NCBI RefSeq assembly: GCF_963675165.1
Contig: NC_087393.1
Location: 542,002 to 606,001 of the forward strand
Origin: Halichondria panicea
Lineage: Eukaryota > Porifera > Demospongiae > Suberitida > Halichondriidae
Direction: 5' to 3'
DNA: 64,000 nucleotides
Shown here in pieces: positions 23,501 to 32,300 of the stretch. Numbering within the stretch: position 1 is the first letter of the stretch; each line of letters begins with the position of its first letter. The notes under the pieces are model-generated. The model was not told where the DNA came from, ran no database searches, and was given only the letters and a program-made list of their open reading frames with translations. A program made the translations under genes and the position numbers.

Positions 23501-26275
23501 CGAAGAATAACAAGGAAAAGCCTAAAGAGCCTCTGTGCTTCTTGATCACTAGCAGCTGCTTTAACTTGTTCTAATACAGTCATCATAAGTTGGCTAATCA
23601 TTGCGAATGGAGGGTTTGCAGTAACTTGTATAATATTTTTTGCACCCTGCTCTGATATGAAGCCATTGGCAATCAAATGAGCAGAGAACAAAGCAGGGAG
23701 ACTTCCAGTAGCTGTATCAATGGCTTTAGTCAACCTTGCTGAGAAACCTCTAAGAATATTAGCCTCTTTTCTTGCTGCCATCTTGTTTGTTCATAAAAAT
23801 AGAAATCATGTGACCAACCTATAAGAGTGTGGTTGCTTCTATAATGGTATTCATTTATACTTGACCACCAAATTTTGACCACCAAATTAGTGCCAATGAC
23901 TATAAATATTTACATAGAGCATGGCAGTGCAATCACTGCAATGGGGTTAGACGATAATGTGTGTACGTACATGTAGTGATTTCACAATGATATCATCTCT
24001 CCTTGCAGTGGGGCTCTGAGAAGCAGCTGTTGGTGGCCAACTGTACAAGCACTGTCCAGATCCTCAGTGAGCATGTCATGAATGCACACTACAACCAGCA
24101 GGTCAGCTAGGGAACTACTAGCTAGGGAGTACTGTGTAGCAGGTACCTACCTACCCATAGTCTAAGCTGCAGGAGATTGTATTATCCCTCTACTCTACTC
24201 TCTTACTCATTAATACGTCATGTACCAAAGGCCCCTATGTATAGGTCATCCCCCGAGGGCTTGAGCTGTATTAGCTGTACAGCCCACAAACCTATACACA
24301 CGTGTAGTGCACACACAAACTAGAGCTTTTGTTTGATTTTCTCCCATGTACATGTACACTGTATAATTATACTTGTAGCAAATCAATTAGTACAGACATG
24401 TTTGCTTCACCCCCCTCCCTCCTGTGACAGGTATCAGTGGTCCAGGTCTCCCCCAGTGAGCTGATGGTGGAGTGTCACAGCACAGGGCTACTACACACTG
24501 TCAAGGCAGCCATGCATGTGAGGGGTGTGGCTGTGAACCGTGAGGACGTGATGGTGTGGAGTGGGCGGAAACTAGCAGTGTACGCTTTCTCCCAGGACAA
24601 GCCGACCATCAGAGATGCAGGTACTGTCAATGATGGAGATCAATCAACTAACCTGGATTGTGTGTGTGCATTGTATCTGACCACTGTTGGTGTCATGTAC
24701 ACAGTGTTGTGTCTGGTAGTGTTGTGTCTGGTAGTGTTATATGTTCTTGTTATCCCACGCCAGAGGAGTTGTTCCTAGTGCCTAAGGTTAATTGTGTCCT
24801 CCCGCCTCTGATCTCACGCTGTGTTGTGTTGCTGTAGGTTCCTTCTCCACTGACACCCAGTGTGCAGCACTGTATGAGCACAGTGTCTACACTATTGAGA
24901 AGGGGGCCATCAATGTCAGGGCTTTCCAGGTAGGGGGCTATATGCATTATGGTAGACAATAATCATAGTCACTGCATATGTACATTGTAGTAGTTTCAAT
25001 TTGGACCATTGTGGTATTTATATCAGAATTGTCATGATGCAGTATAGTCATTATTGAGTTGCCAATCGTTTTTGAAACTGAACCGTTGTTTGTTTCCTAG
25101 GGGACGGTGAAGCAGGTGCTCTCGTTTAGTGATGTGGAGGGTTCTCCGCTGTGTCTAGGGGTCGGAGGTCACCACATCGTGGCAGCCACTGATACTGGTT
25201 ATGTCAAAGCCTGGGACCTGGCTAGAAGGTGAGATCATGACAGTAGCCCTGATCAATCTTCATAATTAGGTTCTAAATATAAAATATAATTTATGACATA
25301 ATGTCTCAAGTTAGCAGGAAGTTATTTATCCACACATTGTGTTATTGGAAACAGCATTGTACATACGTAAGCAGCATTGTGTAAGCAGCATTATGGTACG
25401 ATTAGCAGCTAGTCAATAAATGAATGATTTTGTTTGTTTGTTGAGATCCACAAGTTGTCTGATAGTCACTCTGGCATTGATACTTGCCTGCAATGGTGTA
25501 TGTAGTGGAGCTTTATTACAATGTATACGTACCTGCATTGAACAATCCCATCAAATAGCTTTTTGGTGGCCCCAGTGTGGTATCTCTTACGCCACTCTCT
25601 CTTGATATCCAAGAATACCAGTTCCTTTACCCCTGCTGTGAGAATGGACACACCGTCCCTACTAGAGGGGAGGAGGTTTGTATAGAGGGTGGCCCCTTCT
25701 GGAGACTCCTTCTGTTTATAGGCAGCTTGTATAGCTACTACAGCAGCATGGGTCACTGTGATTGTGTGTGTTTAGCCTTATTAGAAAAACAACTCAGAAA
25801 AACCTATTGGTTTGTATTATAATTATAGTGAATGGCTTATGGTTAATTGTGTGTGATGATGGTTACGTGCTTTTGTACCGTAGGGATATTTTGTGTCTTC
25901 CTCTTTGTCTTCTTTGTTACTATTCCAAGTCAAGCCTTCTCTAGGTAGAAAGTTGTACCCCTCCCCAATGATCTTATTTTCTGGACTCACCAGGACTGCC
26001 CCAACCTGTTTTGAAAGTAGCAGCCACTATGTGTTCTATGTACCAGATTGCATGCTCTTCTGATATCAAAATCCAGCATGGTACAATACAAGTAGTTTGT
26101 GCTCACCTTCGTGTGTGGGTCCTCACTCTGGAGTGCTACCTCCAATGCCCTTTTCATGAACCTTAAATCATTGCCAGCTGCAACTGGTGGCATGTCTAGC
26201 TCCTCATCTTCATCTTCAGACTTGTCTGGACTGTCACTCTGTGGGTATTCTACAGCTTCAGCACCTCCTGGGACA

Positions 26276-26359
<84 letters not shown>

Positions 26360-29300
26360 CGTGCGTGTAGTCATGTATACACCTAGCCAAGTCTATTGTG
26401 AATCAATATTTATTGATTCACAATAGACTTGGCTAGGAAATATTGATTCACAACAGACCTGGCTAGGTGTATACAACTATTTTGTCGTGTAGTTGATGTG
26501 AATGTATTTCTCACCCAGTCTCCTTTTCTTTCTCCCTGGGTCACTCATACCTCTCTGTAGCTGAAATAGTTCACTATCCTCTGATAGCTTTCTGGGTGGT
26601 CTGAGATATACATAATAATTATGATATTCAATGGTTTTTACTGTGTTACAGTGTATATTTTAGGAAGGCTCTACATAGCTTACGGTGAGAAAATGGCAGC
26701 GTTTTCTGAGATTTTCCTCTCCACTGCCTGGATGGGTCGTCGGTTTTGACCCTCCTCCTCTTTAGTTACCCCTGTCTCAGGAATAGGCGTGCATACCGGG
26801 TCAGCAAAGAAGGGAGCTGCATCAGTGCTCTCAAGGGAGGGGGTCATCAATGCTGTGTCAGTCTCTCTGATGTATTCAGCTACCTTCTCACTTTGATCCA
26901 AACACTTTATTGTGGTCAAGTTTTTAACCAGCTCATTCAGATCCAGCACCCCTTGCTTTTGGAGGTGCTTGAGGGTATCATAGGGCTTAGCAACATCTGG
27001 AACTTGCACATCGTATAGTTGAACCAGCTTCTCGAACTTTTCTGGTGGTATTTCATCGCTGATAGTCATAAGAAGTCTGTTAAGCGCTTGGTTTTTAGTG
27101 CGTGAGGCCATAGCTACTTAGTGTTTTGTTGTGGTAGTATATATTAGGACAATAATTATGTTGTAATCAATTGTAAGGTGGGGATTTCCCTGGGACCACC
27201 CCCTTTAATGGAATTTGAACCCGTACTCGATAATAAATGCCTCCCACTTTTAATCACTTGTTACGCGTACTGCACAGAGTACAATGTATAATTATGTACA
27301 TACGTTAATTTGTGGATGAGTGATTCATGTTTGTTTTGACAGTAAATGATGCTTCCTTCCTACCCATATTACGTATGTATTCATTTGTATATAAGCTGCT
27401 GTTTTAAGTTTAAACATTCAAATAATGTTTATAATAACACACACAGCTGATTGATTAAGTGTTAGCCAATTTGACGATAGTTGGGTGGATTTTTAAATTG
27501 TCTTCTATCCAGTCTCCTATAAAGTGTGATTTATATTATAATAAAATTAGGAACATGTGAACATGTAGGAGTTACCTTATTTTAATCCTTGCTTTCTCCA
27601 CAATACGCTTCGATGCTTTTGTGGGCAGTATATGTTTGAAAATGTCATCGATAAACACGACTGTTGTTATTCCATAATCCACAAACATCTGAGCATCACG
27701 ATTGGCTGGGAACAGTGTTGTGTACAGAGTACTGCCGCTGATACCATCTTTAGTCCATGCCTCAGTAGCATCAATGATGGCTGCTATTGCTGAGTTGACC
27801 ACTGAAATACAATTATACTGGTATAGTGCATGCATGGATCATTCCAATCATTCTTACCATAAGGGTATTTTGTGTCTAGTGAACTTTTATCTCCATCCTG
27901 TGATGTCCATGGGAAATCTAGTTCGTGTCCCCTACAGATAGGCATCCTGTTATATCCTCTACCTATTACCCCATTTTGAGGGTGAACCAGTACACTTCCA
28001 ACCTGTATAATGTATAATAATTATTGCAACAAGCCATGTAAATGTTGTGCTTTGGGTACATACATGACTGTATACTATAATGATGATGTGATACCTTCGT
28101 ATTTTTGTCTTTACTTTCTTTACAAAGATCTATTGCCTCTTGCATGTATTTCTTGTCATCTTCATTGTATGGTTCTGCATCGCATGGTATCTCCTCCACT
28201 ACTTGGTCATCTTGGTCATTAGCCCCTAGAGATCACACACTGTAATAATTATAGTAGTCGATACCTAGCATCAGGAGTGCTAGCGTATATACTGACCTTT
28301 TTTTCTGTCACCTGGAGAGGCCTCCTCTGGTTGTATCTCACCAGCCACTCCCCTAGGTCCAACCAAGGCTGCACTGTCCGCCTGTTGTCGTTTGGTAGCT
28401 TTAAAGTCAATAACCTCTCTCACTTTCTGACTTTGATCTTCACATCCAATGTCTTCCAGATTTTTAGCTAGTTTCTCTAATTCTAATTTGCCATTATCTT
28501 TGAGGTACTTGAGTACTCTAAAGTGATCTGTAATGCCATCAGGCACATCATCATAGAGGCTGATTAGCTCTGTGAACTTAGCTTCTGGCAGTGTGTCACC
28601 AATATCCACCAGTAGTCCATCAATTGCCAACCTCTCAATAGGTTGTAGCCATGCTTGCTTTATTGTGAGCTTTGTGTCTGTCTACATGACACTGTAATGT
28701 CAGTTATGGTAACTGTTTAGGGGTTTTCCCTGGGACCCTCCCTTCGCTCACGTACATAGCGAGTGGATCACAATCGATTAGCTATAGCTACTGTATAATT
28801 CTCTCCCACAACCATTAAATTGTTTCTCTTATCACAATAGCTTATTGTTACTGTACTCTACAGAGAACCCAAGCTGCTGGTGAATGGTCTAACCATGTTG
28901 AGAGCCTGTGTTATTGTACCACCTCAACATTTATGTACCCCTTGTTGCTTGCCAGTTTAAGTTCAAACGTTCAAAAATTGTTATACATAATGTAAATAGT
29001 GATGGGATTGGGATAACACACACGTACGTAAACTAACGTATTCTCTACAGTTGGTAGGTGGGTAGCCTGGTGAACTTGCTTTTATCCAGTCTCCTGTTCA
29101 TAACAAGAGTATGATTGATTACAACACAATGAAATTACTTACCTTATTTTAATATCTGCTTTCTTTATAATACGCTTTGATGCTTTTGTGAATGGTTTAT
29201 CTTTATAAATATCATCGATAAAAACCACTGTTGTTATTCCATAATCCACACACACCTGAGCATCACGATTGGCTGGGAACAGTGTTGTATACAGAGTACT

Positions 29301-32300
29301 GCCGCTGATACCATCTTTAGTCCATCTCTCAGTAGCATCAATGATGGCAGCTATTGCCGAGTGGACCACTGAAGTAGGCCAATTACATTTTGTACTAGTG
29401 GTCCATTATTCAATTTCTTACCATAGAGGTATTTTTTGTCTAGTGAACTTTTAGCTTCATCAGATGTCCATGGGAAATCTAGTTCTTGTCCCCTACACAG
29501 AGGCATCCTGTTATATCCTCTACCTATTACCCCATTTTGAGTGTGAACCAGTACACTTCCAACCTGTACAATGTATTGTAAGGTTAAAATGAAGATGCGT
29601 AGCTATAATAGACGTGATATACCTTTGTTTTCTTGTCTTTACTTTCTTTACAAAGATCTATTGCCTCTTGCATGTATTTCATGTCATCTTCATTGTATGG
29701 TTCTGCATCGCATGGTATCTCCTCCACCACTTCATCAGCCGTGTATGGATCATCTTGGTCATTAGTCCCTAGAAATCACACACTGTGATACAGTACATGT
29801 AGATTTAATGATAGCTAGCATACTGACCTTTCTTTCTGACACCTGGAGAGGCCTCCTCTGGTTGTATCTCACCAGCTACTCCCCTAATTCCAACGTAGGC
29901 TGCACTATTCTTCCGTTGTCGTATTGTAGCTTTGAAGTCAGTAAACTCTCTCACTTTCTGACTTTCATCTTCACATCTAATGTCTTCCAGATTATTAGCT
30001 AGCTCCTCTAATTCTAGTTTGCCGTTATCTTTGAGGTACTTGAGTACTCTAAAGTGATCTGTAATGCCATCAGGAACTGGCACATCATAGAGGCTGATTA
30101 GCTCTGTGAACTTAGCTACTGTTAGTGTGTCACCAATATCCACCAGTAGTCCATCAATTAGCCTGTTAGATGCGGCCATGCTTGCTTTCTTTATTGTGGG
30201 CTTTGTGGTTTAATTGTCTTGACACTATACTAACAATAATGATTACATAATGACGTACTTATTATAACTATTTAGGGGTTTTCTCTGGGCCCCCCATTGT
30301 TTTACGTATGTACGTACATGTAGCTACATGTATGTCCTTTGTAGGCTAAGTGAGTGGGTCACAACCGATTACTATATATAGCAATTGTTTCTCTTATCAG
30401 ATAACACACAATGATTTATTGTTATTGTATACTCTGTAGGGAACCCAAGCTGCACTGCAGCCGACAGGTGCTGGGGGAAAGTGCTGAGTCATCAAGAATC
30501 ACCTCTGTACAGTGCAACTGTAATGGATCCAAAATCAGTATTCTCTCCAACAGTGTAAGTACACCATCATAACGTGTGTGTGTAGTGTGTACTGTCTCCC
30601 GCCCACACACACACACACAGGCTGGCTCACAGCTCCACCAGCTCACACTATGGGATGTAGACACTGACACTGTCAAAATATTCAACCCTGCCGTTCTCCT
30701 AGGCCACACCCACCCACCAGGAAACCACACCCCTCAATACACCACCCTCCCTCCCGAGCTACCAGAGCCTACTATCAAAGAGCAACACTCTCAATTGAAG
30801 GCATTGATCAATCATGATATTGTAGACAGCCACTGGGACTCTAATGAACCTCGGCTGTTGGTCCTAGTCACTAGAGGCAAGGCTAGTGAAGGGACCAAGA
30901 AGGGGAAACACATACAGGTAAGAGAGGTGTATGGTTGTATACTCAAGGTGTGAGTGTGTCCCCGTGTATAGCCAGGTGCTGTGTTGGTATCCTTGCTCGT
31001 AGCACAGGATGTGGGTGTGGTCATCAGTGATGTACTGACGATGGAGCCACACTGGAAAGGTGTGAACAATGTCATAGTGTTACTCCACTCATTTATTTGA
31101 TCAACATTTGCAGGCCTAGTTGGAGTCAGTGTACCGTTCTTCTACATCAACCAGAAGGTGAACACCTAGTACACTGTACTGGGATAATACCATGACACTG
31201 TACCTCTTATACCCTAATCACTGAATGCCATACTCTACCTTGCACTATTGTACCCTACCTTGTACTATTGTACCCCTCCTCTACACAGGGAGGTGAGATA
31301 CGGGACACTCCATCATTTGTGGGCCGTGTGACGATGAGAGGATTCTCTGGCCTGGAGGACAGTGAGGAGACTGCCCTCCACGCTATGATGGAGTTCACCT
31401 ATCACTCCACTATTGGGAATATGGACGAGGCCTTCAGGGCAATCAAACTCATCAAGAGGTGAGAGGAATGGTTGGAATTTTGTCTACAGAATCTAGGCTT
31501 GCAATCGTAGCTATATTGACTATCTGTTAGCATGTAGCTATTGTGTTTGCTTGTCTAAAATGATGTTTCAACCACATTTTTCCTTTGGTGTAGTGAGGGT
31601 GTTTGGGAGAACATGGCGCGTATGTGTGTCAAGACCCAGCGTCTAGACGTGGCAGCTGTGTGCCTGGGTAATATGGGGAGTGCTCGAGGGGCTAAGGCCG
31701 TGAGGGAAGCCATGAAGATACCAGAGCCAGAGGCACGACTGGCAGTGTTAGCCGTTCAATTAGGCATGCTGGTGAGTGAGTGTGGAGCATCTTATAGTCA
31801 GGCTTACCCTTGTCAATAAAGTTGGAGACATGGCATGTACCAATACATAAGCTTAGAGATTTGGCATTATTGCTAACACCAGTTCAAGTTAGTAAAGCCA
31901 ACTGGTTGTGTGTGCACACACACACACTGACTGTAGGAGGAAGCAGAAGATCTCTACAAGAAAAGCAAGCGCTATGACCTATTGAACAAGTTCTACCAGG
32001 CGTGTGGTAGTTGGAAGAAGGTACTGTACCACAATATTATCATTGCTAGTATTATGACCCCCCCCCCAGGCAGTGGAGGTGGCGGAGTTGAATGATCGCA
32101 TGCATCTTAAGACCACCTATTACAACTATGGCAAGCATGCAGAGGGTATGGGAGAGCTAACAGCTGCCATCAACTGGTGAGTGGGTGGTGAGCCTCCAAG
32201 TAATCAAATAATTGATGTCTTGTTTCTGGCTTGTAGCTGTTTTGCTGCCCTTACTTTTGCTTGTAGATTATTAAGTATTTCCTGTGCAGCTATGAAAAAT

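Follow-up and report, generated by a model that had tools for sequence, protein, structure and literature searches.

A death-effector domain joined to a dCMP-deaminase domain with a lost metal site in three tandem genes of the sponge Halichondria panicea

The stretch of the Halichondria panicea genome analysed here (64,000 nucleotides of contig NC_087393.1, positions 542,002 to 606,001; hereafter the window, whose numbering is used for coordinates) contains three tandem genes, A, B, and C, in which an N-terminal death-effector domain (DED) is joined to a C-terminal domain derived from deoxycytidylate deaminase (DCTD) that has lost its catalytic metal site. This architecture is supported by fold prediction, by profile comparison, and by a shared gene structure. 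What might such proteins do? We tentatively propose that they are NF-kB-controlled scaffolds or sensors, in which an oligomeric pseudo-DCTD would display the DEDs, a mechanism that we infer.

A deaminase domain that descends from DCTD

The original prediction, made from the letters alone, assigned to the three proteins a C-terminal dCMP-deaminase-like domain, and this has been borne out by the Pfam model PF00383, by the PDB entry 2w4l, and by shared introns. Each protein contains one PF00383 stretch, scoring 54.5 bits in A, 49.4 in B, and 51.0 in C (cut-off 25); another Pfam deaminase model, MafB19-deam, gives 27.8, 21.1, and 35.9 bits, respectively (cut-off 27). The closest PDB relative of gene A is a deoxycytidylate deaminase, 2w4l (E 5.1e-19), which we take to be human DCTD.

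Where did this domain come from? The assembly to which the window belongs, searched over 131 Mb, contains an intact DCTD gene (contig C6, locus L007) with HAE and PCNEC present, the product of which shares 73.7% identity with 2w4l across 137 columns. The identity of the window proteins to this intact DCTD is 33% for A, 31% for B, and 36% for C (146-156 columns). Introns at columns 31 (phase 0), 80 (phase 1), and 157 (phase 2) are common to A, B, C, and the intact gene; because the columns and the phases are the same, the deaminase domains of the window derive from a DCTD gene built in this way.

When the genome was searched with the deaminase domain of A, exons of A, B, and the intact DCTD were recovered and C was missed at E <=0.001. 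Gene C surfaces only with PF00383, which misses B, so diverged copies may escape, and the one intact DCTD gene is the one found. No wider family of fusion genes was seen in the genome at this limited sensitivity. Deaminase matches of equal score occur at C6:6270253-6270570 and C27:6325-6642, possibly a duplicated or uncollapsed stretch. Two further open frames, of 258 codons (L048, C15:4836874-4837017) and 229 codons (L049, C15:4830922-4831074), carry HAE and PCxxC and are AID/APOBEC-like by eye.

The metal-site blocks of the window proteins read VHSA and PANRD in A, VNSA and PANRD in B, and THAA and PSSRD in C. The catalytic Glu is replaced by Ala in all three copies, the first zinc Cys by Ala, Ala, and Ser (in A, B, and C), and the second by Asp in each; A and C retain the zinc His, which has become Asn in B. 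The alignment thus agrees with the earlier claim that Glu and both Cys are gone from every copy and His from B, with two of the twelve cells of the HxE and PCxxC site retained. Since the Ala and the Asp are common to all copies, this suggests that the loss of the catalytic site predates the duplications. HxE and CxxC are present in 9/9 DCTD relatives from viral contigs; in five of them, P and the first Cys are separated by a residue or the motif takes a variant form.

A death-effector domain at the N-terminus

Exon 1 of A and exon 1 of C were folded with AlphaFold 2 (AF2), and the models were compared with the PDB by Foldseek. Both have five helices, with a mean pLDDT of 75 for A and 69 for C. 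For A, 24 of the 25 top PDB chains are DEDs, and for C the top 23 all are; the leading folds for both exons are the DEDs of FADD, caspase-8, cFLIP, and PEA-15. An hhalign comparison of a joint A, B, and C profile with 18 DED rows taken from this genome (one of them, L022, mis-oriented, and some sharing one open reading frame) gave 96.4% at E 1.2e-9 over 72 columns, against 4.6% for 30 Death-domain rows, oriented by stop count only, and 0.2% for a reversed query.

The Pfam DED model gives no report for A, B, or C even at E <=10, and the best phmmer match of the DED part in the PDB is an unrelated protein at E 0.39. A chance likeness of the N-terminus was considered and rejected, because the fold and the profile comparisons both give a DED despite the silence of phmmer and Pfam. 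That the N-termini of A, B, and C belong to the DED family is supported by the predicted helical fold of A and C and by the joint sequence profile of all three. The DED-like N-terminus of the original prediction is upheld in this way, by AF2 and Foldseek for A and C and by profile-profile comparison, and not by Pfam or phmmer. Gene B has a weak Pfam match to Daxx (E 0.016, 15.7 bits, below the cut-off of 27.6). TRADD-N is not reported by Pfam in A, B, or C at E <=10; the linker was modelled over its exon-1 part, with low confidence.

An 87-residue query from the DED of A finds the three window copies in the genome at E 2e-52, 2e-38, and 4e-12; the next matches are DEDs, two in number, with E-values of 0.88 and 1.96. 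A pattern for relatives of the DED exon matched 184 stretches of prokaryote genomes, and none of them is a relative.

Are there candidate partners in the same genome? DED and Death matches occur together at C7:1623085-1623814, a FADD-like candidate. At C10:859830-862894 and C10:2921362-2923384 there are tandem DEDs with caspase domains nearby, 0.8-1.9 kb away and on the same strand; these FADD-like and DED-caspase-like candidates are domain matches and not gene models. The death-fold repertoire of the genome is large and, together with short introns, would be in keeping with a sponge: it includes at least 150 Death matches (150 of the 150 scored, from 503 candidates), 44 CARD matches at E <=0.01, and 33 DED matches at E <=10, eight of them at C8:615943-632025. 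An open frame of 439 codons at C10:2931636-2932484 has three DED matches.

Gene structure, host gene, and constraint

The three genes lie in tandem on the minus strand at 25466-30179, all within a single intron (25229..30439, plus strand; boundaries ...GGCTAGAAG/gtgag and ctctgtag/GGAACCC) of a plus-strand host gene. The host is IFT140, as its joined flanking exon groups match PDB 8fgw_E (E 6.2e-19). All introns of A, B, and C are GT-AG and are 45-238 bases long. The earlier description of three antisense multi-exon genes in an IFT140 intron therefore largely stands, with three spliceable GT-AG genes at the expected positions and a matching host.

Gene A (29045..30179) has five exons (30179-29828, 29768-29623, 29563-29422, 29368-29143, and 29093-29048, followed by the stop codon TAG) and encodes 304 amino acids in a frame that is open from ATG to stop. 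Its exon 1 (29828..30179) encodes the DED, at about residues 4-85, and exons 2-5 (29048..29768) encode a linker and then the pseudo-DCTD. Gene B (27462..28652) also has five exons, with the DED frame at 28639-28297 followed by 28225-28095, 28002-27858, 27801-27576, and 27516-27462 (stop included). Gene C (25466..27111) has six exons (27111-26684, 26600-26515, 26276-26107, 26005-25879, 25755-25533, and 25487-25466, stop included) and encodes 351 amino acids, with the DED in exon 1 (26684..27111). Intron 2 of gene C contains a (TG)45 tract and nested inverted repeats (window 26278-26475), of 27 nt with 100% and 38 nt with 95% complementarity.

The ATG of gene B at 28652 is out of frame with the DED reading frame and runs into TGA after five codons; the distance from the ATG to ATTGATGG is 7 bases longer than in A. 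Gene B could be decaying, its sequence could be misassembled, or its true start could lie further upstream, out of view.

How strongly are the proteins constrained? Between A and B, Ks is 0.194 and Ka is 0.096, giving a Ka/Ks of 0.50 (bootstrap 95% 0.32-0.79); by region, the ratio is 0.52 for the DED, 0.45 for the linker, and 0.50 for the deaminase domain. Between A and C, Ka is 0.65 and Ks is ~3, with silent sites saturated; for B and C, Ka is 0.65 and Ks is beyond the range of the method. Despite the saturated silent sites, the frames of A and C are open and their splice sites usable: these two paralogues are old and have stayed open. Judged by substitutions, the proteins of A, B, and C look constrained. 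The dN/dS comparison proposed in the original prediction comes out in favour of constraint for A and B, where the range excludes 1, and is qualified by the missing in-frame start of gene B.

A kB-like block upstream of the genes

Genes B and C have in common an 18-bp upstream block, GGTCCCAGGGAAAWCCCC. In gene B the block, GGTCCCAGGGAAAACCCC, lies at 28720..28737 on the minus strand, -85 to -68 from the ATG position, and in gene C the block, GGTCCCAGGGAAATCCCC, lies at 27180..27197 on the same strand, -86 to -69 from the ATG. With its core of GGGAAAWCCC the block matches a kB site, for which GGGTTAACCC serves as a consensus in the accessible part of PMC13042239, and is a putative NF-kB element. 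Exons of a Rel-homology gene are found on contig C6. Before gene A there is a degenerate block, GGGCCCAGAGAAAACCCC (30275..30292, minus strand, -113 to -96 from the ATG), the core of which, GAGAAAACCC, falls short of the full kB core.

Could the block be shared by chance? In a genome search that passes over very common words, the 18-mer with <=1 mismatch occurs four times, the two exact occurrences being those of B and C, and the reversed control has none. The remaining two near matches are at C10:58970, in an open frame that is leucine-rich-repeat-like, and at C17:973059, within open frames. The longest word found in both 221-base upstream regions of B and C has 13 bases, a length that 0/300 dinucleotide shuffles reach (their longest word has 11); 0/60 shuffles give the two regions a common 18-mer with one mismatch. 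The inner 15-mer with <=2 mismatches occurs three times in the window, once before each gene, against 0.12 expected, although the pattern was derived from the same sites that it counts. Plain kB searches of the window, in which some matches are counted on both strands, are weak: one gave 10 matches against 4.5 expected, with 4/100 shuffles reaching 10, and the second gave 5 against 3.7, with 31/100 shuffles reaching 5.

Scaffold, sensor, or neither

How could these parts work together? A DED exon would have been fused with C-terminal exons taken from a DCTD gene, the catalytic metal site lost, and the fusion duplicated in tandem to give the paralogues. The proteins might be made upon immune or stress signalling. 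Their dead DCTD part would form DCTD-like rings, either by itself or together with active DCTD, and may hold a (deoxy)nucleotide without turnover. Assembly, or a change of ligand, could then cluster the DEDs and nucleate DED filaments of the FADD/caspase-8 type, which would couple the nucleotide state to death or NF-kB signalling. The window proteins would accordingly act as induced nucleators, DED-displaying pseudo-DCTD rings that are perhaps nucleotide-gated.

The residues that have been kept are relevant to this proposal. In the vertebrate (d)CTP deaminase CDADC1, the contacts of dCTP include N367, K392, F393, and I396 at the sugar and alpha-phosphate, according to the available portion of PMC12088426. 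Eight contacts were placed by alignment, with I455, Y457, and four triphosphate lysines left out. The equivalents of the four sugar/alpha-phosphate residues are N, K, Y, and V in DCTD, and they are retained in 12/12 cells. Among the 101 columns identical in the intact sponge DCTD and 2w4l, 28 stay unchanged in A, B, and C; given this background, the retention of all four columns has p 0.005, and that of GYN with DTKYPYV (28/30 cells) p 5e-5, for residue sets picked post hoc, after sequence inspection. The DTKYPYV block had earlier been read in all three copies; gene A has DKKYLYV instead. The allosteric motif of DCTD is G(Y/W)N(A/G) in the accessible text of the same article, and its GYN is retained in 9/9 cells.

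A number of points weigh against the proposal. The Foldseek E-values of the DED models are weak, the best being 0.11, and the RxDL-type charged motif, a feature of helix 6 of DEDs, is replaced by C-x-D-E/Q-S (CEDES in A, CEDQS in B, and CLDQS in C). The DED exon of gene B is without any in-frame ATG. The upstream block of gene A differs from that of C by 3 mismatches, a figure equalled by the best among 60 B-C shuffles. Taken alone, the loss at the catalytic set does not stand out from other conserved columns (p 0.14), and the post hoc choice of residue sets applies here too. The equivalent of H398 is retained in 2/3 copies, that of A399 in 1/3, and those of E400 and C426 in 0/3; by this alignment, the base side of the former nucleotide pocket is altered. 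The allosteric motif ends in GYNR in A and B and GYNF in C, where the last residue is G in the intact sponge DCTD, in human DCTD, and in 9/9 viral DCTDs. This change speaks against an intact allosteric dCTP/dTTP site, and any ligand is therefore placed in the former active site and not in the allosteric site. Finally, such fusion genes were examined in one genome only. The original suggestion of a nucleotide sensor, scaffold, or allosteric partner thus gains from the retained sugar/phosphate residues and the block of B and C, loses by the end of the allosteric motif, the zinc ligands, and the start of gene B, and continues as a conjecture about function.

Other explanations share part of this evidence. 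The dead DCTD might serve purely as an oligomerisation ring on which DEDs are arrayed, with nucleotide binding gone. This agrees with the changes of the metal site and of the last allosteric-motif residue in all copies, and with CDADC1, whose inactive domain is structural and whose residues 391-396 contact the neighbouring protomer (PMC12088426, in the part available); the equivalent of these residues is part of DTKYPYV. The sugar/phosphate contacts retained in every copy argue the other way, although three of the four sit in the same oligomer-contact loop, and for that reason scaffold and sensor cannot be separated. We regard a pure scaffold as rather unlikely, if a serious contender. The most novel view is that of a nucleotide-state death receptor, an NF-kB-induced, emptied dCMP-deaminase ring that would read deoxypyrimidine nucleotides, for example a change of the pool caused by a DNA virus, and would release or cluster its DEDs to seed a caspase-8-type filament; this is unlikely. 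The fusion proteins might instead enter mixed hexamers with intact DCTD and deliver a DED to the enzyme or tune it. An intact DCTD of the same gene structure is present in the genome and DCTD is a homohexamer, the assembly of which is stabilised by dCTP (PMC12088426, accessible part), but an identity of just 31-36% over 146-156 columns speaks against it, and a regulator of this kind is improbable.

Might the genes simply be decaying? As functionless duplicated fusions on the way to pseudogenes, they would account for the lack of an in-frame ATG in B and for an A-B Ka/Ks of 0.50, which we judge rather high. However, A and C are open and spliceable at a Ks of ~3 and a Ka of 0.65, the A-B bootstrap range excludes 1, and B and C have kept the upstream block in common. 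Decay of the family seems improbable. The least probable explanation, to our judgement, is an integrated decoy, in which the dead DCTD would mimic a DCTD targeted by an invader and binding would trigger the DED. A death fold with a dead enzyme in a small tandem family, the kB-like block upstream of genes B and C, and the DCTD relatives at 9 loci on viral contigs are in its favour; no invader ligand is known, and the A-B point estimates of Ka/Ks are below 1 in the DED, the linker, and the deaminase domain alike. An NF-kB-controlled DED scaffold or sensor on pseudo-DCTD is the explanation that we provisionally retain.

Comparison with known systems

Are such proteins already known? In the open-access literature, represented mostly by parts of papers, no description of a DED and DCTD fusion was found, nor a dCMP deaminase paired with a death effector domain. 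To our knowledge, no direct link is known between deoxynucleotide metabolism and the assembly of DEDs. The window proteins resemble DCTD in PF00383, in their likeness to 2w4l, and in three intron positions with their phases; they differ from it in the loss of Glu and both zinc Cys, in the change of GYN(A/G) to GYNR or GYNF, and in the added N-terminal DED. The deaminase likeness to NF041025, an anti-phage dCTP deaminase of bacteria, is distant (A scores 34.2 bits and C 32.4 bits); both scores are far under its 400-bit cut-off and the catalytic residues are lost here.

CDADC1 is alike in that a DCTD-like domain without catalysis has been retained as an integral structural part. By contrast, it has two deaminase domains, one dead but still zinc-binding and one active, and a DED is not mentioned in the available part of PMC12088426. 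The DED/TRADD-N immune proteins of Amphimedon and other marine animals likewise combine an N-terminal death fold with a variable C-terminus, which is sometimes a potential enzyme such as PNPase or HD (PMC8195603, accessible part). In the window proteins Pfam gives no TRADD-N report at E <=10; a deaminase is not named in that part of the article, and in the article's text as a whole the word occurs once, in a reference. Death-fold adaptors, including those of a sponge, can remain supersaturated until they are nucleated by other death folds of their pathway, as described in the available portion of PMC13012725.

As a case of a metabolic enzyme recast as a signalling component, the three genes are compact, and the genome also provides an intact DCTD to compare them with. 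FADD-like and DED-caspase-like candidates are at hand as partners, and the upstream block predicts when expression would be expected. Both death-fold proteins with a variable, sometimes enzymatic C-terminus (PMC8195603) and a dead DCTD-like domain (CDADC1) are already known, at least from the accessible parts of these sources.

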